Below, one piece after another: positions 36,715 through 55,160 of a DNA stretch of 64,000 nucleotides. Both the position numbers and the translations under genes were made by a program. The notes beneath the pieces are model-generated. The model ran no database searches. It saw only the letters and a program-made list of their open reading frames with translations, and was not told where the DNA came from. The stretch comes from Sphingomonas sp. SUN039 (GTDB lineage Bacteria; Pseudomonadota; Alphaproteobacteria; Sphingomonadales; Sphingomonadaceae), in the NCBI RefSeq assembly GCF_024758725.1, contig NZ_CP096972.1, positions 124,001 through 188,000 on the forward strand, read 5' to 3'. Each line of letters starts with the position of its first letter. Positions within the stretch are counted from its first letter, which is position 1.

Positions 36715-36728
36715 CAAGGACCGCGTCT

Positions 36729-38071: not shown

Positions 38072-38103
38072 CGGGGTGCTCCAAAGTTTGATTCGCTAGG
38101 CAC

Positions 38104-38160
38104 TTTCCTATTTCAAAGGGATTTTCCTACTTGTCTAGGGGTTTTCCTATCACTATAGGA
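38104..38160. promoter_or_regulatory. Triple operator-like repeats upstream of S24 repressor
   Basis: TTTCCTA occurs at 38104-38110, 38123-38129 and 38143-38149, spaced 19 and 20 bp apart, about two helical turns. Each is followed by a partial dyad partner; the third is a clean TCCTAT-CACT-ATAGGA, and the second reads TCCTAC-TTGT-CTAGGG. The last dyad includes the Shine-Dalgarno of the repressor gene. The pattern fits an autoregulatory operator for the adjacent dimeric repressor. Confidence 0.7.
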
Positions 38161-38165
38161 GATTC

Positions 38166-38822: not shown

Positions 38823-38823
38823 C

Positions 38824-40011: not shown

Positions 40012-40070
40012 GATCTTTCCCCTCTTGACGAGAATCGGGGCCGGGTCCGTTCCAGCAGGGCGCGACCCCC

Positions 40071-40484: not shown

Positions 40485-40550
40485 GTCTTTTCTCCAAAGG
40501 TCACAAAGGTCACACTTAAAACGGCGCGGCGCCCCGTTCGGGAGGGGGCG

Positions 40551-41090
40551 TCAGCCGAGGCGATTGGCCAGCCAGCCGTACAGAAACGCCTCATTGGCGG
40601 GTCGGCGTTCGGCGAGGTCGAGGTAGCGTTCGCCCTGCAATGCCTCGAGCGCCTTCATCAGCACGCTTTCGCCGTGCGGTTTACGGCGCGCGAGGAAGGC
40701 AGTGAGAGCCGCCTGGGTTGCATCGTCGATGCGCGGACCCGGCACGATGTCGGGGTAGTCCGCCGCGCCGCGATTGAGTGCGTTGAGCGCGCGCTGCAGG
40801 AACGACACCGCGACTGCCGGTCCCATGTTGACGCCGGTGTCGAACAATTCCGCCGCGACATCGGGGGCCGCGTCAGCAATGCGGTCGAAGCCGGGGCGCA
40901 CCCAATAAATGCGGCGATAGATCGCGACCGCCTCGTCGCGGGGAAAGACGCGCATCTCGCCGTGATAGCCATGTGCGCGGGCAACCGCCTCGGTAATCCC
41001 CCAGCGTGTCGCGCCGCCGCGGTCGGCGGGGTGGTCGCTAAAGCCGCCCTCGCGACCGATGACGGCGTCGATGAGCTCGTCGATATCCAT
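40551..41090 (-). CDS. GH108 lysozyme (phage/GTA-type endolysin)
   Basis: This 179-residue protein begins with IGREGGFSDHPADRGGATRWGIT, which contains the EGG catalytic motif and DxGGxTxxGI stretch of glycoside hydrolase family 108 muramidases. A peptidoglycan-binding-like C-terminal half follows (about residues 110-179). It cuts the glycan strands of peptidoglycan. There is no signal peptide, so it needs the downstream holin. The ATG at 41090 is the sensible start; a longer frame runs into the intergenic repeat. It lies 225 bp from a tRNA-Pro gene. Confidence 0.87.
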   Translation of the reverse strand: MDIDELIDAVIGREGGFSDHPADRGGATRWGITEAVARAHGYHGEMRVFPRDEAVAIYRRIYWVRPGFDRIADAAPDVAAELFDTGVNMGPAVAVSFLQRALNALNRGAADYPDIVPGPRIDDATQAALTAFLARRKPHGESVLMKALEALQGERYLDLAERRPANEAFLYGWLANRLG

Positions 41091-41170
41091 GGCAACTAAC
41101 CTTCTGCTTTGCCGAGTCGTTCGGAACATAACCAGAACGGTTAGGTGTAGGAAAGAGGCAAGGCGCAATA

Positions 41171-41252
41171 ATTTTGGCGAAACTAAAATTGGGCGCACCG
41201 CGAGGCCTCCGACGGCCTCGCGCGGGCGAGGACGGACGGCGTGGCATTGCCA
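41171..41252. repeat. Modular hairpin repeat, copy B (degenerate)
   Basis: An AT-rich stem ATTTT/AAAAT (about 41171-41190) is followed by CGGCCTCGC-GCGGGCGAGGAC (about 41213-41232), ACGGACGGC and a GTGGCATTGCCAC hairpin (41240-41252). The order of parts matches copies A and C, but the spacing and several bases differ. It lies between the GH108 lysozyme gene and tRNA-Pro. Confidence 0.5.
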
Positions 41253-41314
41253 CGATGAAGACGAGACTCGCTGTTGCCAATCCTTGCGTGCTTGCCTAAA
41301 CGCCGCGCCTCGGT

Positions 41315-41391
41315 CGGGACGTAGCGCAGCCTGGTAGCGCATCACACTGGGGGTGTGGGGGTCGCAGGTTCGAATCCTGTCGTCCCGACCA
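41315..41391 (+). tRNA. tRNA-Pro (anticodon GGG)
   Basis: The 77-nt gene folds as a normal cloverleaf. The acceptor stem is CGGGACG with CGTCCCG, the D-arm GCGC with GCGC, the anticodon stem TCACA with TGTGG around loop CTGGGGG (anticodon GGG), and the T-arm CAGG/CCTG with loop TTCGAAT. The discriminator A is followed by an encoded CCA. Confidence 0.97.
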
Positions 41392-41694
41392 AGATAGCAA
41401 AGATTTCTTAAGGTATTGATTTGTGAGATATAAACGTCTCACGGCGACCCACGTTAACTTGTTACCGTTTCGTGTCTGCGAGCGATCCCTGGGAATATCC
41501 GCACATTGTGCATTCGTGCGTGAGGCAGGCTTGTTCAGGGCTTTGTCGAGATTGCAGCCGTTCGCTCATAGCCTGTAAGCCCTGATCGTTGCTGTCGTCG
41601 TTTTTGTCATATGGACGGCAAAGGTGCTGGCAGCGCCAAGGAATGCACGTGACGATCCTCGTTTTTTTGGACGAACCGTGCCCCTGCCCGTGCC
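41392..41694. other. Intergenic region without a supported gene
   Basis: These 303 bp are less GC-rich than their surroundings. A 35-codon minus-strand ORF (41462-41569) with three cysteines is possible but has no supporting Shine-Dalgarno. No terminator hairpin, repeat copy of the tRNA 3' end or transposase remnant was seen. It separates tRNA-Pro from the end of the exopolysaccharide locus. Confidence 0.6.
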
Positions 41695-43095
41695 TCAATA
41701 AGCGCCTCTCCCGCCAACTACGGCGGGAATTGTGCGCGCGAGCAGCGCAAGGTCCTGCCGCAGCGAGGGCTTGTCGAGATAAGCTATGTCCATCGCCACC
41801 TGTTCCTCGAAAGGGATTTCAGCACGGCCCGAGACTTGCCATGTGCAGGTAATTCCGGGCTTGCCCGCCAGCCGCGGCCAGACACGGTCGTGATAACTGA
41901 TAACCTCCTTGGGCAGTGCCGGGCGCGGGCCGACCAGCGCCATCGAGCCACCGACCACATTCAACAATTGCGGCAATTCATCGATCGAGAAGCGACGAAT
42001 GAAACGTCCGACGCGCGTGATACGCGGGTCGTGACGCATTTTGAAACAGGTCGCGTCGCGCTCCGACTGGGCGCGCAGTGCTTCGAGCCGCGCCTCGGCA
42101 TCGACCGCCATCGAGCGGAACTTGAGCATCAAAAAGGGCTTGCCGTCACGCCCGATCCGCGTTTGCCGGAAAAGAACGGGGCCGCCGTCCTCGAGGCGGA
42201 TCGCGACGGCGACCGCCGTGAGCAGCGGTGCGAGGATGACCAGCGCTGCTGTGCCTGCCGCAACGTCGAGCCCGCGCTTGATCATCCGGCGGCCCAGCCC
42301 GGCAAGGTCGCGCACGGCAAGGGCATGGGCGCAAGCACGGGCGAGGAACACCCCGTTGCCGGCGAGGTAGCGCCGTGCCATCCGGCGCGGTTCCTGCGCC
42401 AGCCGCCATACCCATTCGAGACCCGTCTGGCGCAGCGCCAGCGGTGCGCGAGGAATGCGCCCGGCATAATAGTCGAACAGCCCCCCGACGCCCATGACAA
42501 CGGGTGCCGCGAGTGCATCGGCGAAGTGCGCGATCCAGCGCTCCTGCCTGGGCACGCCAAAGCCGACGAGAACGATCTTCGCGCCGGACGCGTTGATCGC
42601 ATCGAGCACCGCTTCCTCCGCCTCGGGCGCGTAAAAGCCGTGCATCGCTCCGGCGACCTTGAGGTCCGGGAAGCGCGCCCGCATCGCCGAGCCCGCCGCG
42701 TGGGCAACGCCGGGCTGGCCACCAAGCAGGAAAATCGGCACGCCGGTATCAGTGGCGCGCGCGCATAGCTCGGGAAACAGGTCGGTGCCGTTGAGGTTCT
42801 CGCCAAGGCGGACGCCCGCAAGCCCGGCGGCGATCCGTATCCCGATCCCGTCGGGCAGCAGCATGTCCGATTTCTTGAGGGCGCGCCGGTAACGCGGATC
42901 GCGCGCGGCGATATTGACGCAATGCGCGTTGACGAAACTGACGACGGTAGGTGTGCCGATCAGCGCGCGCAGCACAAGATCGTCGGCCACGTCGGCGCGC
43001 GTTCGCGCGGCAAGCTTCAGGCCGAAGAGGGTGGCGGCAGGCCGCGCGATGCGCGGGGCGAAACTGACGGGCGAAGGCATGGTGAAAGCGGTCAT
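41695..43095 (-). CDS. WecG/TagA-type glycosyltransferase fused to phosphoglycosyl transferase
   Basis: This 466-residue protein joins two enzymes. Residues about 20-240 are a WecG/TagA/CpsF glycosyltransferase: VSFVNAHCVNIA, LLPDGIGI and the GVPRQERWI motif. Residues about 271-466 are a bacterial sugar transferase of the WcaJ/polyprenyl-phosphate glycosyl-1-phosphate type, with one membrane helix (about 276-298), KFRSM, the catalytic Asp372-Glu373 pair (IDELPQ) and GPRP. The C-terminal part would start the glycan by loading sugar phosphate on undecaprenyl phosphate, and the N-terminal part would add the next sugar. A sigma-54-like promoter lies 40 bp before the ATG. The longer frame reaching past 44 kb is antisense to the flippase and is not real. 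Confidence 0.9.
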   Translation of the reverse strand: MTAFTMPSPVSFAPRIARPAATLFGLKLAARTRADVADDLVLRALIGTPTVVSFVNAHCVNIAARDPRYRRALKKSDMLLPDGIGIRIAAGLAGVRLGENLNGTDLFPELCARATDTGVPIFLLGGQPGVAHAAGSAMRARFPDLKVAGAMHGFYAPEAEEAVLDAINASGAKIVLVGFGVPRQERWIAHFADALAAPVVMGVGGLFDYYAGRIPRAPLALRQTGLEWVWRLAQEPRRMARRYLAGNGVFLARACAHALAVRDLAGLGRRMIKRGLDVAAGTAALVILAPLLTAVAVAIRLEDGGPVLFRQTRIGRDGKPFLMLKFRSMAVDAEARLEALRAQSERDATCFKMRHDPRITRVGRFIRRFSIDELPQLLNVVGGSMALVGPRPALPKEVISYHDRVWPRLAGKPGITCTWQVSGRAEIPFEEQVAMDIAYLDKPSLRQDLALLARTIPAVVGGRGAY

Positions 43096-43134
43096 GGAGC
43101 AACAAGTCCCTGTGACGATTGACGCGGGTGCCAG

Positions 43135-43151
43135 TTCAGGGGACGTGCCAG
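43135..43151 (-). promoter_or_regulatory. Sigma-54-like -24/-12 box for WecG-PGT fusion gene
   Basis: On the minus strand the sequence is CTGGCACGTCCCCTGAA, which matches the sigma-54 pattern TGGCAC-N5-TTGC except for C in place of the first T and A in place of the last C. It shares TGGCACG-N4-YTGAA with the box at 51338. Transcription would begin about 25-30 bp before the ATG at 43095. The identical upstream dyad is centred 103 bp upstream. Confidence 0.6.
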
Positions 43152-43247
43152 AAATGCGGATTTGAGGCGTTCGGCGCGCCTCGATGGTTAACCGACCGGG
43201 AGCGTTGCAGTCCGCGATTGCATTGCGCATGCCAAACGCAGCCGTTT

Positions 43248-43260
43248 TTGCAAAATGCAA
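43248..43260. promoter_or_regulatory. Putative upstream activator site TTGCAAAATGCAA
   Basis: TTGCAAAATGCAA is a dyad of half-sites TTGCA and TGCAA around AAA. The same 13 bases recur at 51452-51464, upstream of the other sigma-54-like box. A weaker relative (TTGCA-TTG-CGCAT) lies at 43218-43230, 30 bp away. It sits between the fusion gene and the flippase gene and could serve both directions. Confidence 0.6.
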
Positions 43261-43294
43261 GAGCGGCGCCGGATGGATGCCCCGTGCGACAGGC

Positions 43295-43311
43295 TTGGCA
43301 CGGAATTTGGA
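43295..43311 (+). promoter_or_regulatory. Sigma-54-like box before the flippase gene
   Basis: TTGGCACGGAATTTGGA has a perfect -24 part and a -12 part with G instead of C. The predicted start of transcription would fall near the start codon and past the Shine-Dalgarno AGGAG (43313-43317), which argues against normal use. It is listed because it resembles the two other boxes of the locus. Confidence 0.4.
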
Positions 43312-43323
43312 TAGGAGCTCGTG

Positions 43324-44607
43324 ATGATCGCGCTCCTCACCCGCCCATACGCCGATTTCGCGCGGCGTTCCCCTGATCTGGCCGTGCTCGCGCGCGGTCT
43401 CGCCGCCTATGGTGGCGGCGAGATCGCGACGCGGGCGGTGCGCATCGTCGCGATCGTAGTCATCGCGCGCCATGTCGATGCGGTCGAACTCGGCACAGCG
43501 GCGCTCGCGCTCTCGCTGTTCGAGCTGGTGCGCGTGCTCGCCAATGCGGGGATCGGCCAGCGTATTATCGCGGCAGCGGATGCCGAGCTCGACGCAGTCT
43601 GCGTCCGTGCGGCCCAATTGTTCTGGTTTTGGTGTGCGGCGGTCGCCGGCGTCCAGTTGTCGGTGGCAGGCGTGCTGTGGGCAGGCTTTGCCCTGCCGGT
43701 GCCCGCCGCGATGCTCGCGGTGCTCGCGCTTGTTTATCTGATCATGCCACCCGGACTCGTTCAGGTCTTCCTCCTGATGCGCGACGGGCGGCTTGCAGTC
43801 ACTGCGCGCAACGCGACCGCGCAGACGATCTGCGACCATATCCTGACGATGCTGCTCGCCGCCTTGTGGCCGAGTGCCTGGGCGATTGTGCTGCCCAAGC
43901 TGATGACCGCGCCGCTCTGGACGATCCTGACCCGGCGGGCGCGGCCGTGGCGCTGTCCCACGGGGATCGAACCGGCACCCCTCGCCAGCTTTATGCGCTA
44001 TGGCGCGGGCGTCCTCGGCAGCGAGCTGGGGGCCGCCGCCCGCGCGCAACTTGGCAATCTGGTCGTGGGCGCAACGCTCGGCATCAAAGCTCTCGGCCTC
44101 TTCTACTTCGCGTTCGGGGCCGGGCTCGGCATTACGGCCTCGTTCGTGTCGGCATTCACGATCGTTCTTTTCCCGCATTTGTGCGCGGCGCGCGGTCCCG
44201 ACGAAATCGCGCGGCGTACGCGACGAGGTATGGCGTTCGGACTCGCGGCGATGCTGCCCGTCATCCTCGCCCAGGTGCTGCTCGCACCATTCTACGTGCC
44301 GATCCTTTTCGGCGCTCATTGGGCGGAGGCGGCACCGCTGGTTTCGCTGCTTGGTCTCGGCGCGCTTCCGCTGGTCGCGGGCGCGGCGATGACGGCGGCG
44401 CTGCGCGCGTCACGGCGGACCGGGCTTGACGCCGCGATCAGCCTTGCCAGCGCGGCGGCGGCGATCGGCGGGCTGTGGCTGGGCAGTGGACATGGCCTTG
44501 ATGGTGCGGCGATGGGCTATGTCGCGGGCCTCGCGCTTGTCGTTGTGCCGGCGGCCTTGATACTCGCCTGGCCGCGCCGTCCGGTACCGGCGGAGGCGGC
44601 GGTATGA
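43324..44607 (+). CDS. Oligosaccharide flippase (Wzx/MATE-like)
   Basis: This 427-residue protein has about twelve transmembrane helices with scattered Arg and Pro, the layout of polysaccharide flippases of the Wzx/RfbX group. An N-terminal GLAAYGGGEIATRAVRIVAIVVIAR segment is typical. It would move the undecaprenyl-linked repeat unit across the inner membrane. I chose the ATG at 43324, which has AGGAG 6 bases upstream; a GTG directly before it is in frame. It begins a four-gene rightward unit whose stop and start codons mostly overlap. Confidence 0.88.
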   Translation: MIALLTRPYADFARRSPDLAVLARGLAAYGGGEIATRAVRIVAIVVIARHVDAVELGTAALALSLFELVRVLANAGIGQRIIAAADAELDAVCVRAAQLFWFWCAAVAGVQLSVAGVLWAGFALPVPAAMLAVLALVYLIMPPGLVQVFLLMRDGRLAVTARNATAQTICDHILTMLLAALWPSAWAIVLPKLMTAPLWTILTRRARPWRCPTGIEPAPLASFMRYGAGVLGSELGAAARAQLGNLVVGATLGIKALGLFYFAFGAGLGITASFVSAFTIVLFPHLCAARGPDEIARRTRRGMAFGLAAMLPVILAQVLLAPFYVPILFGAHWAEAAPLVSLLGLGALPLVAGAAMTAALRASRRTGLDAAISLASAAAAIGGLWLGSGHGLDGAAMGYVAGLALVVVPAALILAWPRRPVPAEAAV

Positions 44608-45527
44608 GCGGTCCGCGCTTCTCGGTGATCATCCCGGCCTATAATGCGGCGCGGACAATCGGCGCGTCGATCGCCACTGTTCGCGCGCAAAGCTTCCACG
44701 ATTTGGAGTTGATCGTCATCGACGACGGCTCGACTGACGCGACCGTCGCCGCCGCGCGCGCAGCCATCGGCGACGATATCCGCTGTCGAGTGATTTCCAA
44801 GGGCAATGGCGGCGTTTCGGCCGCGCGTAACCTCGGCGCGGACATGGCGGCGGGGCAATTGCTCGCCTTCCTCGACGCCGACGACCTGTGGCATGAAGAC
44901 AAGCTCTCGACGCACGCCGCCTTCCACGCCGGGCAACTCGACCTTGCGGCGAGCTTCGCGCGCGTGGCGTTCGTCGACGGCACTGCGCGCACGCTCGATG
45001 CGCGCTCGCATTCGACTGTGCCGGAGGGGGGGCTGACCGTGGCGGCGCTACTGGGCGAAAATCCGGTTTGCACGACCTCGAACCTCGTCGTCGATCGCGC
45101 GGCCTTTGCAGTCATCGGGGGATTCGACTCCGAAATGCGCCATGCCGAGGATCAGGAATGGCAATTGCGTGCCGTTACGCACGGCCATCGGATCGAGGGG
45201 ATCGATCAAATCCTCGTCGGCTATCGCAACAGCGAGGACGGGCTTTCGGTCGATCTTGCCGCGATGCACCGAGGTTGGATGGCGCTGGCCGCGCGCTATG
45301 GCGGGCGCGAATACGCGGGCGCGCAGGCGGTGTTCTGCCGCTATCTCGCGCGCCGCACGCTGAGGAGCGGGGCGCCAGGAACGGTCGCGCTCGGCTACGC
45401 CTGGTCGGGCCTGCGCGCACACGGCACTGCATATTTCGATTCCCCCGCGCGTGGCCTGCTGACCTTTGTCGCTGCGCTTGCCAGTCCCCTCCTCCCCGCC
45501 GCGCTGCGCGCGCGCCTTTTTGCCTGA
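44604..45527 (+). CDS. Family 2 glycosyltransferase
   Basis: This 307-residue GT-A glycosyltransferase begins with FSVIIPAYNAARTI and has the nucleotide-sugar and metal motifs VIDDGSTDAT and AFLDADDLWH (the DxD-like DADD). The C-terminal half contains the conserved E-D-x-W-like HAEDQEWQLR. It adds one sugar of the exopolysaccharide repeat on the cytoplasmic face. It overlaps the flippase stop by 4 bp (ATGA). A second family 2 glycosyltransferase gene follows after 11 bp. Confidence 0.92.
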   Translation: MSGPRFSVIIPAYNAARTIGASIATVRAQSFHDLELIVIDDGSTDATVAAARAAIGDDIRCRVISKGNGGVSAARNLGADMAAGQLLAFLDADDLWHEDKLSTHAAFHAGQLDLAASFARVAFVDGTARTLDARSHSTVPEGGLTVAALLGENPVCTTSNLVVDRAAFAVIGGFDSEMRHAEDQEWQLRAVTHGHRIEGIDQILVGYRNSEDGLSVDLAAMHRGWMALAARYGGREYAGAQAVFCRYLARRTLRSGAPGTVALGYAWSGLRAHGTAYFDSPARGLLTFVAALASPLLPAALRARLFA

Positions 45528-45538
45528 AGGATAAGCCG

Positions 45539-46528
45539 ATGACGAACGCGCCAATGGTTTCGGTGGTGATGCCGGTCTACCATGTTGCGGCATTTGTGGG
45601 CGAGGCCGTCGCCTCCGTGCTCGCTCAGCGCTATGACGATTTCGAGCTTATCATCGTCGACGATGGCGGTGACGACGAAAGCGTTGCACTCTGCCGGGCG
45701 TTCGGCGATCCGCGGATCCGCGTCGTTTCGCAGGCAAACCGGGGCTTGGCGGGCGCACGCAACACCGGAATCGCGGAGGCGCGTGGGCGATACATTGCGC
45801 TCCTCGACGGCGATGACCGCTGGCATCCGGACAAATTGATGCTCCACGTTATCCATCTCGAGGCGGATCGCACGGTTGACGTTAGCTATGCGGGATCGCG
45901 AATGATCGATGCGGCAGGACGGCCGCTCCGTGTCGCAATGCGGCCCCGCCTTGCCGACGTCACAGCGGCGCATTTCCTGACGCGCAATCCGGTCGGCAAC
46001 GGATCGGCGGCGGTGCTGCGGCGGACCGCGCTCCACCGGGTCGCGTTCGCGCACCCCGACACGCCGGAACGGCGCTGCTGGTTCGACGAAAGCTTCCGGC
46101 AGTCGGAGGATATCGAGCTGTGGCTGCGTATGGCGGCAGGACATGGCTGCCGTTTCGAGGGGATCGCCGGCCTCCTGACCGATTATCGCATCGTCAGGGG
46201 CGGCCTGTCGGCGAACATCGTTCGCCAGTTCGAAAGCTGGCAGCGCGCGGTCGACAAGCTGGCGGGCTATGCGCCTGACCTTGTCGCGCGGCACGGCAAC
46301 CGGGCGGCCGCGTACCAGCTCCGTTATCTCGCCCGCCGCGCGGTCCAGCTGGGCGATGGCCCCTTTGCTGCCGCGCTCGTACGCCAGGCGCTCATGCGCG
46401 ATCCGGCGATCCTGATCGCCGAGCCGGTCAAGACCGCAATTACCGCGCTCGCTGCCTTTGCTTTGCGCTACATGCCAGCGCCCGCGTTCCGCGCGCTCGG
46501 CACACTTTATCTGGGGGCTGCAGCATGA
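45539..46528 (+). CDS. Family 2 glycosyltransferase
   Basis: This 329-residue GT-A enzyme starts with VSVVMPVYHVAAFVGEAVASVLAQ and carries VDDGGDDES and LLDGDDRWHPDK as its metal and donor motifs. It resembles its upstream neighbour in the first 110 residues and differs in the acceptor half, which contains QSEDIELWLRMA. The ATG at 45539 is preceded by AAGGATAAG. A longer frame that runs back into the preceding gene is a shadow. Its stop overlaps the start of the next glycosyltransferase by 4 bp. Confidence 0.9.
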   Translation: MTNAPMVSVVMPVYHVAAFVGEAVASVLAQRYDDFELIIVDDGGDDESVALCRAFGDPRIRVVSQANRGLAGARNTGIAEARGRYIALLDGDDRWHPDKLMLHVIHLEADRTVDVSYAGSRMIDAAGRPLRVAMRPRLADVTAAHFLTRNPVGNGSAAVLRRTALHRVAFAHPDTPERRCWFDESFRQSEDIELWLRMAAGHGCRFEGIAGLLTDYRIVRGGLSANIVRQFESWQRAVDKLAGYAPDLVARHGNRAAAYQLRYLARRAVQLGDGPFAAALVRQALMRDPAILIAEPVKTAITALAAFALRYMPAPAFRALGTLYLGAAA

Positions 46529-47577
46529 CTTCGATCCGCGTCACCCATCTGATCGACGACACCAATTTCGGCGGGGTGATGCGCGGCCTGCGCATGTTCG
46601 ACCGTCCCGAATTCGCCAGAATCGGCACGATCGAGACGATCCGGGTCGAACCGCGCCGACGGCTGTCGCCCCGCTATCCTGCCGACCTCATTGTCACTCA
46701 TTTTGCGCCGTGCTGGGCAATGATCCCCTTTTTGTGGTCGCTCAAGCTGCGCCATCCGCGCGCGCGGCTCGTTCATGTCGAGCACAGTTACATCGGCTGT
46801 TTCGAAGCCGCGCAGGTGCCGAACCGCACACGCTTCCGGACGATGCTTGCGCTGGCGCTGGCGCCGTTCGATGAAGTCGTCTGCGTGTCGGACGCCCAGG
46901 CCGGCTGGATGCGCGCCGCCGTGCCCTCGGTCGCAGCGCGTACCCATGTGATCAACCCCTGGGGAAGCGTCTCCGGGCTCGATGCCGTAGCCCCGGTCGC
47001 GCACGCAACCGCCGGGCCGCTCGTGCTCGCGGCCTACGGCCGGTTTGATCCGATCAAGCGGTTCGACGTGCTGATCGCAGCCATGCGTCGCCTGCCGCCC
47101 GACCGCTTCCGGCTCGTGCTCGGCGGCTTCGGGCCTGAGGATGCGGCGCTGCGTGCTGCCGCCGAAGGGTTGTCGCATGTCACGTTCGCCGGGAGAGTCG
47201 AGGACGTGCCGGGATTCCTCGGTGGGTGCGACGCGGTGGTCATCCCGTCACGCTGGGAGACGTTCGGCCAGGTCGCCGAGGAGGCAAAGGCGGCGGCGCG
47301 TCCGATCGTCGTCGCAGATGGGCCTGCGCTCGCGGCGCACATCGGACAGGCGGGCCTCGTCGTCGACTGCAGCGATCCCGCCACTCTGGCCCGTACGCTC
47401 GCCCTGCTGCCCACGCTGCCGCTGCGCCGCATGGGGGAGGCGGGGCGCGCGAGCCTTGCCACCGCCGCCGCAGACCGTGTCGCGCAGTGGCTCGCGCTTT
47501 ACGAACGCGCCGTGCCCCGCTTGGCATCGCTGCGCGCCGCTGTGCCGATCAGGATGAGCCCCGGCCAGATCAGATAG
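46525..47577 (+). CDS. Family 4-type glycosyltransferase
   Basis: This 350-residue GT-B enzyme has its acceptor half first (VTHLIDDTNFGGVMRGL) and a donor-binding C-terminal half with AYGRFDPIKRFDVLI, VLGGFGPED and the VIPSRWETFGQVAEEAKAAARP motif, including the conserved E-x7-E. It adds another sugar of the exopolysaccharide repeat. Its last 79 bases overlap the end of the convergent ligase gene, an unusually long 3' overlap. Both readings are supported by good reading frames and sensible protein ends. Confidence 0.9.
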   Translation: MTSIRVTHLIDDTNFGGVMRGLRMFDRPEFARIGTIETIRVEPRRRLSPRYPADLIVTHFAPCWAMIPFLWSLKLRHPRARLVHVEHSYIGCFEAAQVPNRTRFRTMLALALAPFDEVVCVSDAQAGWMRAAVPSVAARTHVINPWGSVSGLDAVAPVAHATAGPLVLAAYGRFDPIKRFDVLIAAMRRLPPDRFRLVLGGFGPEDAALRAAAEGLSHVTFAGRVEDVPGFLGGCDAVVIPSRWETFGQVAEEAKAAARPIVVADGPALAAHIGQAGLVVDCSDPATLARTLALLPTLPLRRMGEAGRASLATAAADRVAQWLALYERAVPRLASLRAAVPIRMSPGQIR

Positions 47578-48761
47578 CCGAGTACTTCGAGGTTTTCTCC
47601 GAAGGAATAAAGCAACAGCACAAACAGCAACGCGAGCGCCCGCCGTGCTTCGTGCAACCGGCCGGCCTCTACGGCCGTCAGGATCAGCGATCCGAACAGC
47701 GGCACGGCGAGTGCGAGCACACCCACCAGCCCCTTGACGAACAACAGGCCGAACCAGCTGTGATGGCTGCCGATCGGCATATATTCGACAAGATGAGGTC
47801 CGCGTTCGACAATGCCATGGCCAAACCATGGCGCTTCGTTGCGCCACCTCTCGACCGCGATCCGGCCCAGCGTCGCGCGCACTCGGCTTGAGGCCGCCCT
47901 TGCGCCGTTGAAATCGCTCGTAGCCTGTTGGGCGAGCGCGAGAAGGCTTTGAGCAAAGAACCCGGCGAGCAGCGCGCCCGGCGCTGCCGCGAACCAGGTC
48001 GAAGGACGGGCGAAGCGCGCGACCAGCCAGGCCGTCGGCCAGGCGAGCACGATCGCGACGAGGGCCAGCCGCGATTGCGACATCAGCGCCATGGCAAGTG
48101 CGGCGGCAATGCCGATCGCCCGCCACCCGCGGTGCCGCTCTTCGCCCGCGATCAGCGCGGAGATGGCCGCGACGAACCCGATCGCGGGGGACCAGGGCGC
48201 GAAAAACTGCCAACGGGGCGCGCTCGTTCCCGGCTCAAAGGTGTACAGAATTGTCGAGAAATATTCGGGGCCCGAACCCCCGAGCACGACCAGGGGCGAG
48301 ACCCAGAGCGTTTTGGGCAGGCCGACATAGGGCGCGACCGCAAAGATCGGAATCAGCGCGAGCGACTGCGCGCCGAGGCGGCAGGTTGCGCGCACGATGA
48401 CGCTGCTACGGATCGGCAGTACCGCCCCCGCGAGCGGGAACAGCGCGAGCAGTGCCCAGCCCTTGGCCCAGCCCGCAACCGATTTGAGCGTCTGCGCCGC
48501 GCCGAGATCGTTTTCGATGTGGCCGACGAGCAGGGCGACGAGCATCACTGCCATCCCGCCGAGCCATAGCATGACGAGCGCGCCGGGCGGGCGCGCGTGA
48601 CCGAGGTAAAGCCGCGCGCATGCCATTGCCCCGAGCGTCCACCCGAGCAGCGGCCCGGCAAAGTAAAGCCCGCCGATCAGCCACAAGACCCAGGTCGCGG
48701 CGATCGTGCCCGCGATCAGGCGTTCGGCAAGAGACGCTGGATGATCGGTTGGCGAAGCCAT
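47499..48761 (-). CDS. O-antigen ligase / Wzy-like polymerase
   Basis: This 420-residue membrane protein has ten or more helices and the ligase/polymerase loop (WRNEAPWFGHGIVERGPHLVEYMPIGSHHSW), with the His and Arg residues typical of Wzy/WaaL proteins. It would join repeat units or ligate them to a carrier on the periplasmic side. It overlaps the end of the preceding leftward gene by 46 bp and the end of the convergent glycosyltransferase by 79 bp. Its role as polymerase rather than ligase is inferred from the chain-length and export genes beside it. Confidence 0.85.
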   Translation of the reverse strand: MASPTDHPASLAERLIAGTIAATWVLWLIGGLYFAGPLLGWTLGAMACARLYLGHARPPGALVMLWLGGMAVMLVALLVGHIENDLGAAQTLKSVAGWAKGWALLALFPLAGAVLPIRSSVIVRATCRLGAQSLALIPIFAVAPYVGLPKTLWVSPLVVLGGSGPEYFSTILYTFEPGTSAPRWQFFAPWSPAIGFVAAISALIAGEERHRGWRAIGIAAALAMALMSQSRLALVAIVLAWPTAWLVARFARPSTWFAAAPGALLAGFFAQSLLALAQQATSDFNGARAASSRVRATLGRIAVERWRNEAPWFGHGIVERGPHLVEYMPIGSHHSWFGLLFVKGLVGVLALAVPLFGSLILTAVEAGRLHEARRALALLFVLLLYSFGENLEVLGYLIWPGLILIGTAARSDAKRGTARS

Positions 48762-50152
48762 AGCAGCAGGAATCCGACGATGAGGAGGACCGATGCGCCG
48801 ATCGCGCCGGCGAGCGCGAGGAGCAACGAGGGCGAGGACGGCTTGATCGGCAGCGACGGCGCCTCGAGCGTTTGGACGAGCGGGTATGACGCGAACGGAT
48901 CGGCTTTGTTGGTGTCGAGCCGCGCCAGCGCCGACGAAAAAACGGCTTCGGCGACACGCTGTTCGCGGACGAGGTCGGCGAGTTGCGCGGCGGTGCCGGC
49001 GAGTGCAGTCGTCTCGGCATTCTGCTGGCCGATCTGCGCGCGGATCTCGGCGGTGGCGGCGCGCGCGCCCGCGCTGTCGCCAAGACGCGACACAAGCGCC
49101 TCGAACAGCCGCTCGCGGCCGTCGCTGACTGACAGATCGGCGAACGTCATCAGCGTGCGCCCGTCGAGACCGGTCAGCGCACGGCCGCGCGCGATGAGCG
49201 CATCGCGCACGCCCGACTTGCGTGCGTCGAGCTCTTCGACCGTCGCGTGCTGCGGGCCGAGCACCGACCCCTTGTCGGTCGCCGTCGTCGCCACCTCGGC
49301 ATAACGATCGAGCAGTGAGCGGAAGAGTGGATCGGCTTTCAGGATCATTGCGCGCCGCGCCTCGGCCGGACCGATCTGGAGAGCGCCGGACAGTTGGCTC
49401 GTGGTCGCCGCTTGGGCGCGCTGCGTCGTACGCGCGACGCGCTCTCGGTCGCGCAGCGTGTCGAGCGCGGAGATGCGGCTGTTGAACTGGTCGAGCGAGA
49501 CGAGGCCGGTGCGCCCCTGAAAGGCAAGCACACGCTGCTGCGCGTCGCGGGCTTTGCCCTGGAGCGCGGCGATCTGGCGGCGGTCATTGGCCTCGCGCGT
49601 CGCCGCCTCGTCCTGGCGGAGTGCATCGAGCCCGGCAAGGAACGCGCGGCGCAGTGCTTCGGCGCGGGCATGCGCCTTGGCAGCGGTATGCCCGCTTAAG
49701 GTGACCTCGATCAGATTGGTCTGATCGGTGAGGGTGACGACCGGCTTGGGGAAAGCGAACGGATCGTCGCCCGCAAGCCGGGCCGCCGCGCGCAGCGTGA
49801 CGTCGGCGGCAAGCAGGCGCTTGTAGCTTTCGGTCGGGCTGAGCGTCGATCCGCTGAACGGCGAGGCGGTCGTCGTCGTCGCCTGCCCGATCGTTTCGAC
49901 GTTGATCGATCCGCCGACGCCGGTTCCGGGCAGGATAAACGTCATCCGGCTGGTGTAGCGCGGCGGTGTCGCGACAACATAGAGTGCGGCGAGCGCCCAG
50001 ATTACGGCGAGCGAGGGGCCGAGCGTAAGCGCATAGCGGCGGTAGCGGCCAAACGAGGGCAGCCCGTCGCGAACCAGCCGCCAACCGCGTACCAGCCGCC
50101 GAGTCGTATCGGGCGCAGGTGGCGCGGGCGGCGAAAGCGGCTCGTGCTTCAT
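48716..50152 (-). CDS. Polysaccharide chain-length determinant (Wzz/GumC-like)
   Basis: This 478-residue protein has two transmembrane helices, one near residues 45-67 and one near 437-462, with a long periplasmic coiled-coil region between them. The N-terminal periplasmic segment after the first helix (YTSRMTFILPG and later TESYKRLLAADVTLRAAARL) follows the Wzz pattern. There is no C-terminal tyrosine kinase domain, so it is a plain Wzz/GumC-type copolymerase. It controls chain length with the polymerase. The ATG overlaps the stop of the export gene (ATGA). Confidence 0.87.
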   Translation of the reverse strand: MKHEPLSPPAPPAPDTTRRLVRGWRLVRDGLPSFGRYRRYALTLGPSLAVIWALAALYVVATPPRYTSRMTFILPGTGVGGSINVETIGQATTTTASPFSGSTLSPTESYKRLLAADVTLRAAARLAGDDPFAFPKPVVTLTDQTNLIEVTLSGHTAAKAHARAEALRRAFLAGLDALRQDEAATREANDRRQIAALQGKARDAQQRVLAFQGRTGLVSLDQFNSRISALDTLRDRERVARTTQRAQAATTSQLSGALQIGPAEARRAMILKADPLFRSLLDRYAEVATTATDKGSVLGPQHATVEELDARKSGVRDALIARGRALTGLDGRTLMTFADLSVSDGRERLFEALVSRLGDSAGARAATAEIRAQIGQQNAETTALAGTAAQLADLVREQRVAEAVFSSALARLDTNKADPFASYPLVQTLEAPSLPIKPSSPSLLLALAGAIGASVLLIVGFLLLWLRQPIIQRLLPNA

Positions 50153-51303
50153 CGCGCGGCCCGGCTCAGCACGATTGCGGGTGTAATGGCGCCGGCTGTA
50201 CTGCCCACGAAGCCGACCGCATCGGCGAAGTTCATCCAGCGGCTGTCGTAGCAGGCGATGGCATCGTTGGGCATCAGATAGGGGTCGAGCGCGTCTCGAT
50301 CGGCGCTGCGTACCAGTTCCTCGACGCGCCGTTCGACGACAATGCTCTGGCCGTTGAGCGGATTGCGCGAGATCAGCACCGCGCGCCGCCCGGCGTTCAT
50401 CGCCGAACCGCCGACGCAATTCATGCTGGCGAGACCCTGAAGCAGCCGGGTGCCATAGGGCAGGCTCGTACTCTGCGCGTCGACAGCGCCGCCGGCGTTG
50501 TTGTTGGCCGGGCGTGACAGGTTCGACATATAAATGCGCACGCCGCCTAGCGTGACCGAAGAAGGGCGGACGAGTGCCGCATCGAAACAGCCGCGTGACG
50601 GCACGGTGATCCGGTCGCCAGCCGCCAGCTCGACATCGTCGACCGGTGCGCCGTCGAGAGCGCCCGAAACATCGATGGTATAGACCATGGTGCCACGTTC
50701 GAGGTGTATCCGGCGCAAATCGGCGTCGGGGCGTACCCCACCCGCCGCACGCAGCGCCGCCGTCAGCGTACGACCGCCGTTCATGTCGCCATTGGCATCG
50801 CGCAAGCCCATACGCTGCACCTCGCTGCGCTCACCGACCGCGACGATGCCGCTGGCGAAGACCGCACCCGCGACGGGCAGCTTGATCGCGGTCGCCTCGA
50901 CAAGGCGCAGTGCAACAGCGTTGCGCAGCGCCCGGACCTGTCCTGCCGCCAGCAAGGCGTCGGAGAGCCGATGTTGCGCCGCTTCCGGGGCGAGTCCCAC
51001 GACGGCGACGGGACCAAGCCCCGGAAGCGTAACCTGCCCGTCGGCGGCGATGACATAATTGCCCGTCACGCGATCCGCATCTCCCAGCAGCTCGATCCGG
51101 AGGCGGTCACCGGGTGCGAGCCGTGCACCGCTCGGCAGGCCATTTGCTGCGGGGGCCGGCATGGGCTGGGCAGGAGAGCAAAGTGCAGTCGGTCCCTGCG
51201 GCGCTTGCCACGCGCTTGCTGGGCGGTTCTCCGGGAGACGCCCTGTGGTACAACCGCCGAGCGAAGCCAATGCGGCCAGCGTCGCTGTTCGTGAAATTCG
51301 CAT
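50149..51303 (-). CDS. Polysaccharide export outer-membrane lipoprotein (Wza-like)
   Basis: This 384-residue protein begins with a lipoprotein signal ending LASLGGC. A polysaccharide-export (Poly_export) domain follows (about residues 60-140), with LAPGDRLRIELLGD and GNYVIAADGQVTLPGLG, and then repeated SLBB-like domains, including LTAALRAAGGV and DDVELAAGDRITVPSRG. It would form the outer-membrane portal for the polymer. The ATG at 51303 gives the signal peptide a proper start; a longer in-frame extension does not. A sigma-54-like box lies 35 bp upstream. Confidence 0.9.
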   Translation of the reverse strand: MRISRTATLAALASLGGCTTGRLPENRPASAWQAPQGPTALCSPAQPMPAPAANGLPSGARLAPGDRLRIELLGDADRVTGNYVIAADGQVTLPGLGPVAVVGLAPEAAQHRLSDALLAAGQVRALRNAVALRLVEATAIKLPVAGAVFASGIVAVGERSEVQRMGLRDANGDMNGGRTLTAALRAAGGVRPDADLRRIHLERGTMVYTIDVSGALDGAPVDDVELAAGDRITVPSRGCFDAALVRPSSVTLGGVRIYMSNLSRPANNNAGGAVDAQSTSLPYGTRLLQGLASMNCVGGSAMNAGRRAVLISRNPLNGQSIVVERRVEELVRSADRDALDPYLMPNDAIACYDSRWMNFADAVGFVGSTAGAITPAIVLSRAAR

Positions 51304-51337
51304 TTTGCAGTCCCCAAGCCAGTCCTGGAACCTCCGG

Positions 51338-51354
51338 TTCAAGCTTCGTGCCAA
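51338..51354 (-). promoter_or_regulatory. Sigma-54-like -24/-12 box for polysaccharide export operon
   Basis: On the minus strand the sequence is TTGGCACGAAGCTTGAA, matching sigma-54 consensus TTGGCACG-N4-TTGCA at all but one position (A for C in the -12 part). Transcription would start about 20-25 bp before the ATG at 51303. The dyad TTGCAAAATGCAA lies 104 bp upstream from the 5' end of the box to the dyad centre. Confidence 0.65.
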
Positions 51355-51451
51355 TTCAGGCCGGCCTTTGCGTTCTGCCCGGCGAAACCTCCATATCGGC
51401 ACAATTCCATGGCAGATCGCAGTCGGAACGGACGCAAGCGCAAGGCTCGCT

Positions 51452-51464
51452 TTGCAAAATGCAA
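51452..51464. promoter_or_regulatory. Putative upstream activator site TTGCAAAATGCAA (second copy)
   Basis: This 13-bp dyad is identical to 43248-43260. It lies between the leftward export operon and the rightward enhancer-binding-protein gene, 38 bp before the start codon of the latter, so it could also serve autoregulation. A near copy on the minus strand (CTGCAAAATGCGA) covers the export gene's start codon. Confidence 0.6.
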
Positions 51465-51502
51465 ATAGTCAACACACCCGTAACCAAAGTGCGGGGCAGG
51501 AC

Positions 51503-52867
51503 ATGACGGGCAAGGGACGGATCCTAATTATCGACGATTGTGCGGCCGATGCGGCCGAAATGGTGGCGGCGCTTGAGCGGGCCCGCTTCGATGTTCATCG
51601 AACGCCGTCGAGCGCACAGGCGGTGGCGCTGCTCGACAAGGGCTGGGATGCTATCCTGATTGCGCTGACGACGGTGGGCGGCGACGCTCTCTCATTACTC
51701 GCTTCTGTCGTGCAGGCGGGCGATCAGGCAAGCGTGATCGCGATCGACGGCAAGGGCGCGGTCGAGAATGCGGTCGATGCGATGCGGCGCGGCGCCCATG
51801 ATTTCCTGGTGAAGCCGGTGACGCGGGACAGGCTGGTCGAGGTCTGTGCCCACGCGGTCGCCGAAGCGGTCCAGCGCCGCAATACCCGCTCGGGCCGACG
51901 GGCGAACGATCGCAAGGGGTTTCAGGGTTTCATTGGCAGCTCGATCCCGATGCAATCGGTCTATAAGGTGATCGACGGCATAGCGCGGTCATCGGCGACG
52001 GTCTTCATCACCGGCGAGAGCGGGACGGGCAAGGAAGTCGCCGCTGAAGCGCTGCACAATGCGAGCGATCGCCGAGCCAGGCCCTTTGTCGCAATAAATT
52101 GCGGGGCGATTCCTGAAAATTTGCTCGAATCGGAAATCTTCGGCCACGCCAAGGGCGCGTTCACCGGCGCGACCGAGAATCGTATCGGCGCGGCACGGAT
52201 GGCCGACGGCGGTACGCTTTTCCTCGACGAAATCTGCGAACTCGACATCAAACTCCAGGTCAAGCTGCTGCGCTTCCTGCAAACAGGCATGATCCAGCGC
52301 GTCGGCAGCAGCACAGCGGAAAAGGTCGACGTGCGCGTCGTCTGCGCAACTAACCGCGATCCCGTCGTCGAAATTCTGGAGGGGCGGTTCCGCGAAGACT
52401 TGTTCTATCGGCTCGCAGTGATGCCGCTGCACCTGCCGCCGCTGCGCGAACGTGGCACCGACGTGCTGCTAATCGCCGAAGCCTTTGCTGAGCGGTTTGC
52501 GAAGGAAGAGCAGCGCGCGCGCACCGGTTTCAGCGAGGCGGCGCGTACCTATCTGCGCCAGCATGACTGGCCCGGCAATGTTCGCGAGTTGCAGAATGCG
52601 GTGCGCCGCGCCGTCATCCTGTCAAGCGGAAGCCCGATCGACGCGGCCGACCTGCGCCCCGCTTTTCCACGCGCCCGACCCGAAGGGGCCACGCTGCCCG
52701 CCGTTGTCGATGATGCGCCGCAGACACTCGACAATATCGAACGGCTGGCGATTGAACGTGCGGTCGCGCGTGCCGATGGCAGCCTGACGATCGCGGCGCG
52801 TGAATTGGGGGTCAGTGCCTCGACGCTCTACCGCAAGCGCGAACGTTGGCAGGCCCGTGCGGCTTGA
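51503..52867 (+). CDS. Sigma-54 enhancer-binding protein with degenerate receiver domain
   Basis: This 454-residue NtrC-type activator has an N-terminal receiver-like domain (about 1-120), an AAA+ domain (about 145-370) and a Fis-type HTH at the C-terminus (about 412-450). The AAA+ part is complete: Walker A GESGTGKE, the sigma-54-contact loop GAFTGA, Walker B GGTLFLDEI and the R-finger region. The receiver keeps the acidic pair (IIDD) and the conserved Lys (FLVKPV). The phosphoacceptor position reads Ala (DAILIALTT, where Asp is expected), and the usual Thr/Ser is Asp (VIAIDG). It should therefore act without phosphorylation. The ATG at 51503 is supported by GGGGCAGG upstream. The gene diverges from the export operon, and no sensor kinase is nearby. 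Confidence 0.93.
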   Translation: MTGKGRILIIDDCAADAAEMVAALERARFDVHRTPSSAQAVALLDKGWDAILIALTTVGGDALSLLASVVQAGDQASVIAIDGKGAVENAVDAMRRGAHDFLVKPVTRDRLVEVCAHAVAEAVQRRNTRSGRRANDRKGFQGFIGSSIPMQSVYKVIDGIARSSATVFITGESGTGKEVAAEALHNASDRRARPFVAINCGAIPENLLESEIFGHAKGAFTGATENRIGAARMADGGTLFLDEICELDIKLQVKLLRFLQTGMIQRVGSSTAEKVDVRVVCATNRDPVVEILEGRFREDLFYRLAVMPLHLPPLRERGTDVLLIAEAFAERFAKEEQRARTGFSEAARTYLRQHDWPGNVRELQNAVRRAVILSSGSPIDAADLRPAFPRARPEGATLPAVVDDAPQTLDNIERLAIERAVARADGSLTIAARELGVSASTLYRKRERWQARAA

Positions 52868-53001
52868 GCGCTCGCGGTCGCCATTCACGTGCATAGGGTT
52901 GGGACAGCCTATACCGGGCGCTACGCACTTTGCGAGGGGTACGGGGGACCGGAAAGGGATTGCTGGTGACGATTGGAGGCTTGGACGAGGGCTATGCCCA
53001 G

Positions 53002-53976
53002 TCAAAGCGCAGAAATTGTTACGATCGCGTCGGCGGGCTGGCGGGCCAGAGGGTTGCGCACGGCAAAGCTGAAGGCGTCCGCCTCGATCTCGAAGATGTC
53101 GCCTGCCTGTGGCGCGATCCCGTCGGCGAATGAGAGCGTCGCCGTGCCGAAGAAATGAACGTGAACGTCGCCGGGTCGGCGAAACACCGGATTCTTGAAG
53201 TGGTGATGTTCAAGATTGGCGATGCTGTGCGACATATTGCTTTCGCCGGTCAGGAAGGGCCGCTCCCAAAGCACGGTGCCGTCGCGCAAGATGCGCGAGA
53301 TGCCGCGCACGTCCGACGGCAACTCTCCAAGCAGAAGTTCGGGCCCGAGGGCCGCCTGTCGCAGTTTGGAATGCGCGAGCCAAAGGTAGTTGTGACGCTC
53401 GGTCATATGATCCGAAAATTCGTTGCCCAAGGCGAATCCCAAACGGCACGGTCGTCCGTCGGCATCAATTACATAGATACCCGCAATCTCCGGTTCTTCT
53501 CCGCCGTCATTGGCAAAGCCGGGCATCGTGAGCGCCGCGTTCGGCGCGACCAGGATCGAGCCATCGCCCTTGTAGAACCATTCGGGCTGCTGGCCGATTT
53601 GGCCTCGTGCAGGCTTTCCGCCCTCCAGGCCTTCGAGAAACATGCGCATCGAGTCGGTCGCGCCGCCCGCTTCTGCGGCCCTGTGCATCTTGTCGCGTCC
53701 TTCGGCGGATCCGAGGTGGGTCAGGCCAGTCCCGGTCACGAGAAGATGTGCCGTGTCGTCATGGTCGATGGCACACAGCAGCTCGACCTCGGTCAAATCG
53801 ATCGCGTTGGATCGGCGTGCCATGGCGATCTCGCCAAGCGTCGCGCGTTGAGATAATGCCTCTTGGGCCAGTTCCAGTGTCGTTCTGGAACCGGCGACCC
53901 GCCATGCGTCGCCGCTGTCGTCTAGGGCAGCAACGCCCCGCGTGCCATTTTGACGGAATTGAACCAGGGACCGCAT
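53002..53976 (-). CDS. Fumarylacetoacetate hydrolase-family protein (AraD1-like)
   Basis: This 324-residue protein has the FAH-superfamily fold in its C-terminal part. GTGLTHLGSAEGRDKMH (about residues 83-99) and the later EPEIAGIYVIDADG segment match the AraD1 branch, which handles sugar-acid intermediates such as 2-keto-3-deoxy acids. The metal-binding acidic residues (E-x-E near EEPEIAG) are present. Its substrate cannot be set from sequence. The ATG at 53976 has GGAG eight bases upstream; an ATG two codons earlier is too close to it. It converges with the enhancer-binding protein gene and follows the ABM-domain gene. Confidence 0.83.
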   Translation of the reverse strand: MRSLVQFRQNGTRGVAALDDSGDAWRVAGSRTTLELAQEALSQRATLGEIAMARRSNAIDLTEVELLCAIDHDDTAHLLVTGTGLTHLGSAEGRDKMHRAAEAGGATDSMRMFLEGLEGGKPARGQIGQQPEWFYKGDGSILVAPNAALTMPGFANDGGEEPEIAGIYVIDADGRPCRLGFALGNEFSDHMTERHNYLWLAHSKLRQAALGPELLLGELPSDVRGISRILRDGTVLWERPFLTGESNMSHSIANLEHHHFKNPVFRRPGDVHVHFFGTATLSFADGIAPQAGDIFEIEADAFSFAVRNPLARQPADAIVTISAL

Positions 53977-54046
53977 CGGCATCGCTCCATATTGCCTTCA
54001 ACACGGCGCAAACCGCACCGTGGGTTCTCGCTATTAAGCTACAACC

Positions 54047-54700
54047 TTACCGCTCCACCAGCACGCGTTCCCCCTCCGCATCATAGGCCTTGACGCTCAT
54101 GCTCACGACCTTTGCCGCCCCAAGCTCGGCATTGAACACCGCCATGTGCGGCGTGGCGAAATGCGCGGTCAGCGCCGCGTGGTCGCGCCATTTTTCGGCG
54201 ATGTGCAGCACCTCGGGGTCGAGCACATCGCGCGAAAAAGCGTAGAGTTCGCAGCCGTCCTCGGCGCGCGTCGCCCTTACCTGGGTGTCTATCGCTTCCT
54301 GCATCCGGTCGATCTCGCCGCTGGCGCAGCGGACGTCGCCCAGGACCACAACCGTGTTCCTGTCCTCATATTCGGGGCGAAAGCTGGTCGCGGGAATTTG
54401 CAGCAAACGCCGCACGATGCCACTTTCATAGCTTTCGATCGCTGTCGCGACGACGCTTGCCGCGCGCATGCCGATGTTGAATTCGACCATATGATCGCCG
54501 ACCATGTGCGCCGCCTGTGCCGCACGGGTGCGCCAGCGTTCGGCCACGCGAAGCAGATCGGGTTCGAGCACGTCACGGCCGATGCTGTAATGCTCGCAAC
54601 CATGGAATTCGCGGACGGCGGCTACCTGTCTTTCGATGGGCAAATGCAGCCGCGCGATGTCGGCGTTGCGGACCCTCAAATACCCCATGACCAATAACAC
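54047..54700 (-). CDS. Tandem antibiotic biosynthesis monooxygenase (ABM)-domain protein
   Basis: This 217-residue protein consists of two copies of one ~100-residue dimeric alpha+beta barrel domain. The repeats align at CEHYSIGRDVLEPDLLRVAERW (first) and CELYAFSRDVLDPEVLHIAEKW (second), and again at HMVEFN versus HMAVFN. Single ABM domains normally dimerise, so this is a fused dimer. Members include quinol and heme-degrading monooxygenases, but many are of unknown role. The GTG at 54700 has GGAG at a proper distance. It is 70 bp upstream of the FAH-family gene on the same strand and diverges from yajC. Confidence 0.83.
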   Translation of the reverse strand: MLLVMGYLRVRNADIARLHLPIERQVAAVREFHGCEHYSIGRDVLEPDLLRVAERWRTRAAQAAHMVGDHMVEFNIGMRAASVVATAIESYESGIVRRLLQIPATSFRPEYEDRNTVVVLGDVRCASGEIDRMQEAIDTQVRATRAEDGCELYAFSRDVLDPEVLHIAEKWRDHAALTAHFATPHMAVFNAELGAAKVVSMSVKAYDAEGERVLVER

Positions 54701-54817
54701 GGTCTCAACTCCATTCCGACCCCGACCCCTTTGCGCGCTGGGTTAACGTCCGGTTGCGCGGGGCTGCCCCCTCTGTTAGTCGCGCGCCTTCCCCGATTAC
54801 AGGCTTAATTTACACCG

Positions 54818-55159: not shown

Positions 55160-55160
55160 G

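Follow-up and report, generated by a model that had tools for sequence, protein, structure and literature searches.

A putative LuxO-type sigma-54 regulon at a polysaccharide locus of Sphingomonas sp. SUN039, with an activator carrying a degenerate receiver

Introduction

A polysaccharide locus occupies positions 41695-52867 of the 64,000-nucleotide (nt) stretch analysed here (hereafter the window), which comes from the 3.53 Mb genome of Sphingomonas sp. SUN039 (contig NZ_CP096972.1, positions 124,001 to 188,000). An original prediction, made from the letters of the window, had placed matching sigma-54 promoters and identical activator dyads at a fixed distance before two leftward genes of this locus, had judged such a repeat very unlikely by chance, and knew of no description of the regulon. 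The locus raises the question of what these dyads are, whether the sigma-54 activator encoded in the same locus, as had been noted (51503-52867), is likely to use them, and how that activator is controlled. We consider that the locus is a local sigma-54 regulon of LuxO type, ancestrally controlled by a phosphorelay and cut loose from its input in the window, a reading to which we give a probability of about three in four.

Results

LuxO operators and sigma-54 boxes

Two intergenic regions are concerned. P1 (51304-51502) separates a polysaccharide export gene, read leftward, from the divergent activator gene, read rightward, and P2 (43096-43323) separates a WecG-transferase gene (wecG), read leftward, from a flippase gene, read rightward. 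Their features are as follows.

51452..51464, no strand assigned: P1 dyad TTGCAAAATGCAA, exact LuxO operator consensus
43248..43260, no strand assigned: P2 dyad TTGCAAAATGCAA, exact LuxO operator consensus
51338..51353, minus strand: -24/-12 sigma-54 box TGGCACGAAGCTTGAA of the export gene, 35 bp before ATG 51303
43135..43150, minus strand: -24/-12 box TGGCACGTCCCCTGAA of the WecG-transferase gene, with a weaker -12 half, 40 bp before ATG 43095
43296..43311, plus strand: tentative flippase-facing -24/-12 box TGGCACGGAATTTGGA, on the far side of the 43248 dyad

The two leftward boxes were re-found with the sequences and coordinates first given, and the start ATG 51303 of the export gene is supported because a plausible lipoprotein signal follows it. 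The dyad centres lie 103 (P2) and 104 bp (P1) past the end of the 17-mer boxes, as had been measured before; from centre to centre with the 16-mer box the distances are 111.5 bp (P2, derived by hand, the script having picked a nearer box) and 112.5 bp (P1), and the gaps between dyad and box are 97 and 98 nt, respectively. The third box had been overlooked; in relatives the promoters form divergent pairs. This box lies 49.5 bp from the dyad and ends only 12 bp before the ATG. Its phase is off by about 4 bp at a period of 11 bp, or by about 2 bp at a period of 10.5, and it may or may not be functional.

The dyads stand out from chance, and the boxes alone do not. The exact 13-mer TTGCAAAATGCAA occurs at two places in the whole genome, both in the polysaccharide locus, and no exact dyad (one strand) was found in 30 dinucleotide shuffles of the window, while exact TGGCACG-N5-TGAA (both strands) turned up twice in a further 30. 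Boxes with up to two mismatches are no more frequent than expected (18 found vs 20.4). Three boxes in the window have at most one mismatch to TGGCACGNNNNTTGCW, at 34937, 43296 and 51338, the latter two flanking dyads; the wecG box has two. In many relatives, as in the window, the -12 element reads GA instead of GC.

The motif itself has been described. In the cited passages of the Vibrio literature, TTGCAWWWTGCAA is the upstream activating sequence of LuxO, the V. fischeri qrr1 promoter contains two perfect matches to it that are used by LuxO and its paralog SypG (PMC10162802), and LuxO occupies two cooperative sites about 100 bp before the sigma-54 site (PMC11407668). With up to one mismatch, TTGCAWWWTGCAA occurs at eight places in the SUN039 genome, six of them outside P1 and P2. 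A genome scan for dyad plus box had been proposed with the original prediction. The exact dyad stands at P1 and P2 only. Of the six outside sites four were examined, of which three have no box within 200 bp by our criteria and one has a three-mismatch box; on these four sites, a wider regulon in this genome was rejected.

Two imperfect copies lie close to the promoters on the minus strand. A two-mismatch copy, CTGCAAAATGCGA (51298-51310), lies across the export start codon about 41 bp downstream of the export box, possibly by chance, and a three-mismatch dyad-like sequence, ATGCGCAATGCAA (43218-43230), was seen by eye on the wecG side of the P2 dyad, 30 bp away, at a position where relatives often carry a second dyad; alone it is not significant.

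The activator encoded beside the dyads

Among NCBIfam models, the activator matches LuxO (NF041946) best, at 472.9 bits, followed by PrsR (TIGR02915, 408.6) and NtrC (358.3). Since the equivalog cut-off of the LuxO model is 800 bits, we call the protein LuxO-like and not LuxO. The LuxO model matches 16 of the 16 aligned orthologs, with the lowest best E-value of all models, and the best match of the window activator in the PDB is LuxO (5ep0, 363 bits; best non-LuxO chain 285). As in LuxO systems, TTGCAWWWTGCAA-type operators lie upstream of predicted sigma-54 promoters; a phosphorylatable aspartate in the REC domain is missing in the window (A54). RpoN is encoded in the same genome.

The second rank of PrsR raises the alternative of a PEP-CTERM-box regulon (Haft 2006), in which the activator would be PrsR and the dyad Haft's motif 1. 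The PrsK/PrsR system likewise has a sigma-54 box and an upstream site near polysaccharide genes and an NtrC-type regulator, and the SUN039 genome encodes an exosortase (TIGR02602, EpsH homologue, 192.5 bits, at G000:C1:778628-779314). However, the score of 408.6 bits is below the PrsR cut-off of 502.6, the target genes differ, and motif 1, in the cited part of PMC1569441, terminates in TTTACA at a mean distance of 63 nt from its box, as against TTGCAWWWTGCAA with gaps of 97 and 98 nt here. In addition, the exosortase lies about 0.6 Mb from the locus, and none of the ten locus proteins scanned matched a PEP-CTERM sorting-signal model. This alternative was rejected on score, motif and spacing, and we regard it as highly improbable. 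The exosortase elsewhere in the genome means that a PEP-CTERM system may coexist.

Conservation in Sphingomonadaceae

Of 298 family genomes, 31 yielded an activator ortholog (49-57% identity; E ≤ 1e-95), and in a larger draw the count was 36 of 397 (E ≤ 1e-115; 22 of 96 genera), SUN039 included in both counts; the six other genomes of its own genus searched have none. Thresholds and the ends of promoter regions were set by hand throughout. A dyad with at most one mismatch is present at 25 of 29 ortholog loci. The 29 comparison loci, which belong to other sigma-54 activators and all come from the genus of SUN039, have none. The polysaccharide block is syntenic in 16 of 18 retrieved 18-kb regions.

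In the P1 regions of 16 relatives and the window, 25 dyads with up to one mismatch were counted vs 0.33 expected from shuffles, two near-duplicate genomes (L076 and L077) supplying six of the 25, and such a dyad is present in 15 of the 17 regions, window included. Conservation of this kind is the strong test of the observation, and it bears out the claim that a chance repeat is unlikely. A sigma-54 box stands at the orthologous P1 place in 15 of 16 relatives, often ending TTGAA (for L081 the script gave no P1 box, though the region listing shows one), and the -24 GG/-12 box is conserved across orthologs. At P2, a dyad with up to one mismatch is present in 14 of 25 regions, SUN039 included, and with up to two mismatches in 23 of 25, a threshold at which chance dyads are not negligible, the shuffle control covering P1 only; one such dyad, in L092, lies 255 bp from its box. 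The wecG-side boxes occur at comparable places in relatives, whose divergent boxes often enclose two or three dyads spaced 19-23 bp from each other. The prediction of sigma-54 promoters with activator dyads, and of the locus activator as their likely binder, is supported by this conservation and by the encoded RpoN, with the amendment that the motif is the described LuxO operator.

It might be argued that another activator or a repressor binds the dyads and that the LuxO-like gene is incidental, since at least seven other proteins of the SUN039 genome match the AAA+ activator domain and binding by the LuxO-like protein is a sequence-based proposal. The dyads nevertheless track the ortholog, both in the locus counts above and in a scan for dyad plus box at a gap of 30-60 (7 of 29 ortholog genomes vs 0 of 16 others, the reversed pattern 0 of 45; 28 of the 30 relatives entered, G088 and G163 being left out), and their sequence is the very one that the closest characterised homologue uses as its operator. 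We hold this alternative to be very unlikely.

Single loci show some variation. In Aurantiacibacter marinus (L114), dyads with divergent boxes occur at two places of a 21-kb locus, one of them directly before an H-NOX gene. Altericroceibacterium indicum (L110) has neither a dyad at up to one mismatch nor an H-NOX gene by pattern search; G038, probably the same genome, has dyads at two mismatches and an H-NOX gene. L076 (G246) carries a further exact dyad, again with divergent boxes, on the downstream side of the activator (10470-10673); the leftward reading frame that it precedes (9678-10388) is possibly an extra regulon member.

The idea that distant LuxO-like loci use the operator in general was rejected: a dyad at up to one mismatch is present in 3 of 74 of them, and dyad plus box in 1 of 74. 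Two of five plasmid loci (L215 and L216) have suggestive operator sites. On the Paroceanicella profunda plasmid (L215, 4889-4901), exact TTGCATTTTGCAA lies 75 bp before a molybdopterin oxidoreductase gene that directly precedes a run of kinase, response regulator and LuxO-like activator genes, which hints at LuxO-type operators being used elsewhere in Alphaproteobacteria.

Helical phasing

In the relatives, the centre distances from the best dyad to each box cluster near 57, 67, 78, 89, 100, 111 and 122 bp, with a period of 11-11.25 bp (R 0.65, n=68) whose best R was reached by none of 2000 uniform controls. The test takes related genomes as independent observations, for which the uniform controls make no correction, and the controls were scanned over half the number of periods used for the data. 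The window, its P2 region (L084) and L077, near-duplicate of L076, were left out of this set; the P1 shuffle count kept L077. At a period of 11 bp, the window sites deviate from the mean phase by 0.85 bp (P1) and -0.15 bp (P2). A held-out set was read with a less strict pattern, each side of a promoter contributing a single dyad; seven of eight loci entered (L112 out), and L114 had been dropped because it seems to belong to the species of L223. Here 8 of 14 distances were within 2 bp and 10 within 2.75 bp of phase, and on the leftward-box side 7 of 7 were within 2.2 bp. A stricter first held-out run oriented four of nine loci and gave R 0.68 (n=14, nine of them no more than 2 bp off); it counted several dyads for each promoter, and one species seems to have entered it twice.

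A fixed geometry of 103-104 bp was rejected as a signature, and this part of the original prediction falls: relatives step by about 11 bp, and the matching distances of the window are real but one rung of the ladder, which both sites share. Such a ladder is consistent with looping on one face of the DNA.

A degenerate receiver with intact output domains

In the receiver of the window activator, A54 replaces the phospho-aspartate (D54A), D82 replaces the conserved threonine (T82D) and V58-G59 replace Pro-Asp, and the LPD loop is lost; the acidic D11-D12 and K104 are kept. All 35 loci of relatives that were inspected (28 + 7; L058 and L112 left out) retain the phospho-aspartate. The mean identity of the window receiver to 15 relatives is 34.7%, vs 50.3-60.4% among the relatives, while the corresponding values are 64.4% vs 64.6-70.1% in the AAA+ domain and 54.4% in the helix-turn-helix (HTH) domain (relatives 49.2-58.6, median 54.9). 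Walker A, GAFTGA and Walker B are intact. It thus seems that selection was lost on the input domain only.

It has been reported for LuxO, in the cited part of PMC4878744, that two elements keep the ATPase inactive, the receiver in its unphosphorylated state and a linker that contains Gly141. The glycine that we equate with Gly141, G142, is kept in the window and, by our own count, in 13 of 15 relatives. The window copy might thus be a relic, with a regulator locked off, vestigial operators and a locus otherwise expressed or silent. The three receiver changes, the retained linker glycine, the absence of H-NOX from the genome (see below), the single dyads and the lack of a plus-strand box at P1 all agree with such a relic; on the other hand, the AAA+ and HTH domains are about as conserved as in relatives, the activator reading frame is intact, and both window dyads are exact consensus, better than those of many relatives. 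Overall, we regard a relic as unlikely, though much less so than the two alternatives above. Phosphorylation-independent activity is preferred because output domains and operators have been kept, and the window activator most likely works without phosphorylation.

H-NOX and kinases in relatives

The likely input side, H-NOX and a phosphorelay, is invisible from the window because it is absent there. An H-NOX gene was found in 30 of 30 ortholog-bearing relatives searched and in none of 20 genomes without the ortholog (four of them less than 90% complete), and a genome-wide search found none in SUN039. In 14 of 16 syntenic relatives it lies between P1 and the activator, in the direction of the latter; one copy matches Pfam HNOB at 99 bits. 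G020 has the order H-NOX, hybrid kinase (HisKA-HATPase-REC), HPt protein, activator, and G009 likewise has a hybrid kinase ahead of its H-NOX and activator genes. A first kinase query (N-terminus of the G020 kinase; same 28 relatives as the dyad-plus-box scan) matched 3 of 45 genomes, G020 included, and a second (G246 hybrid kinase) 7 of 13, G246 included; of these, six lie at the wecG end, two of them with the H-NOX gene, and that of G237 lies elsewhere. At E ≤ 1e-55, the G246 query had no match in SUN039 nor in 5 of 12 relatives. A different sensor kinase is encoded no more than about five reading frames from wecG in G136, G202 and G237. By gene association, nitric oxide may act on the LuxO-like activator.

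Points against the preferred reading

Several observations weigh against a functional LuxO-type regulon in the window as favoured here. The window activator is the most divergent of 16 in its AAA+ domain, by 0.2 points, scores below the LuxO equivalog cut-off and, by hand alignment, keeps 7 of 11 HTH residues critical in the LuxO alanine scan (cited part of PMC11407668). With G142 kept, loss of phosphorylation could also mean that it is permanently off. The window sites are single dyads, arrays being absent; the -12 half of the wecG box is poor, and a plus-strand box before the activator at P1 was not found. Among relatives, 4 of 29 ortholog loci and 11 of 25 P2 regions lack a dyad at up to one mismatch, and phasing in the held-out set is weaker (R 0.48, n=14). 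The SUN039 match in the dyad-plus-box scan is the out-of-phase flippase box, since the two reported boxes fall outside the 30-60 gap. The kinase search, in turn, says little about SUN039, as 5 of 12 relatives are also without a match.

Genes of the locus and its border

41695..43095, minus strand: WecB/TagA/CpsF glycosyltransferase fused to polyprenyl glycosylphosphotransferase (WecG-transferase, wecG), by profile search
43324..44607, plus strand: MOP-type flippase, Wzx-like, family match under the curated cut-off
44604..45527, plus strand: glycosyltransferase GT1, by profile search and synteny
45536..46528, plus strand: glycosyltransferase GT2, by profile search and synteny
46525..47577, plus strand: glycosyltransferase GT3, by profile search and synteny
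47499..48761, minus strand: putative polymerase-like membrane protein, by position and synteny, with no family hits
48716..50149, minus strand: chain-length determinant-like protein, weak TIGR03017 EpsF match, no Pfam match, synteny
50149..51303, minus strand: polysaccharide export protein, Poly_export, weak EpsE match
51503..52867, plus strand: LuxO-like sigma-54 activator, 454 aa, with degenerate receiver, AAA+ and Fis-type HTH

A tRNA-Pro(ggg) gene (41315-41391) adjoins the wecG end; its neighbours are genes for a GH108 endolysin-like protein (40551-41345) and an S24 peptidase (38166-38822). As the activator is absent from the six other genomes of the genus, this side of the locus is a possible island border.

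Discussion

The closest described relative is the Vibrio LuxO/qrr system, with which the locus shares the operator TTGCAWWWTGCAA, sigma-54 boxes, a REC-AAA-HTH activator and the best family and structure match. It differs in that the likely sphingomonad targets are polysaccharide operons and that the window copy has no phospho-aspartate and scores below the equivalog cut-off. A qrr-like small RNA was not seen at the locus: an Rfam search of window 36000-56000, up to E 0.1, returned just a tRNA.

A LuxO-type activator on a polysaccharide locus is known from V. fischeri, where the LuxO paralog SypG activates the syp locus (PMC12369376, PMC8738867 and PMC10162802, in the parts cited), with an H-NOX/nitric-oxide-controlled kinase as input (HnoX-HahK-SypF/LuxU-SypG; PMC12369376, PMC8738867). 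The H-NOX link is shared by the relatives; here, however, the hosts are Alphaproteobacteria, H-NOX was not found in the SUN039 genome, and in most of the relatives examined the same operators are followed by the H-NOX gene and then immediately by the activator. In V. harveyi, nitric oxide feeds via H-NOX and the kinase HqsK into LuxU/LuxO (PMC3759921), to which the G020 run of H-NOX, hybrid kinase, HPt and LuxO-like genes corresponds, whereas the output studied in the cited part of that work is luminescence, flagella and biofilm via LuxR, and not a polysaccharide locus with shared operators.

The claim that the regulon is undescribed holds for sphingomonads among the papers listed from an open-access library, in which no description of a sphingomonad LuxO-type regulon was found; it does not hold for the wider family of systems, Vibrio LuxO being a close described relative. 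The main text of a sigma-54 regulon survey (PMC12316311) contains no words beginning LuxO, H-NOX or Sphingo; PMC11340318, seen in part, is a Sphingomonas LM7 polysaccharide paper. The parts are of known kinds, and their combination in sphingomonads was found in none of the papers listed.

The operators, boxes, phasing, synteny, co-occurrence and divergence by domain are computed results; from them we infer binding of the activator to the dyads and sigma-54 dependence of transcription, and we propose the following mechanism. The LuxO-like activator would bind TTGCAAAATGCAA at P1 (51452) and P2 (43248) and, by looping over about ten helical turns of DNA, reach the RNA polymerase-sigma-54 at the -24/-12 boxes. 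Its AAA+ ATPase would open the promoters of the export operon and the WecG-transferase gene, and possibly of the flippase operon, and polysaccharide would putatively be assembled and exported in response. Among relatives, the activator would act as a normal-looking phospho-response regulator, paired with H-NOX and in some genomes with a nearby hybrid kinase. In SUN039, H-NOX and the phospho-aspartate would have been lost and the output domains kept, leaving a putatively phosphorylation-independent activator.

In a wider sense, the odds lean slightly towards a recurrent sphingomonad switch from nitric oxide to polysaccharide, made up of H-NOX, a phosphorelay, a LuxO-type activator, divergent sigma-54 promoters and helically phased LuxO operators. 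It would be a counterpart, in another class, of the Vibrio H-NOX/LuxO/SypG wiring, and at least one lineage would have given up sensor and phospho-aspartate but retained activator, operators and promoters, so that its switch became phosphorylation-independent. The present reading extends the LuxO operator code known from Vibrio quorum sensing to Alphaproteobacteria and ties it to polysaccharide assembly, with a link to nitric-oxide sensing suggested by gene association in relatives. Such a regulon, with its predicted spacing rule of about 11-bp steps, is directly testable in named species, e.g. Aurantiacibacter marinus, and the SUN039 activator may represent a natural case of a response regulator that has lost its input while its output is seemingly still under selection.

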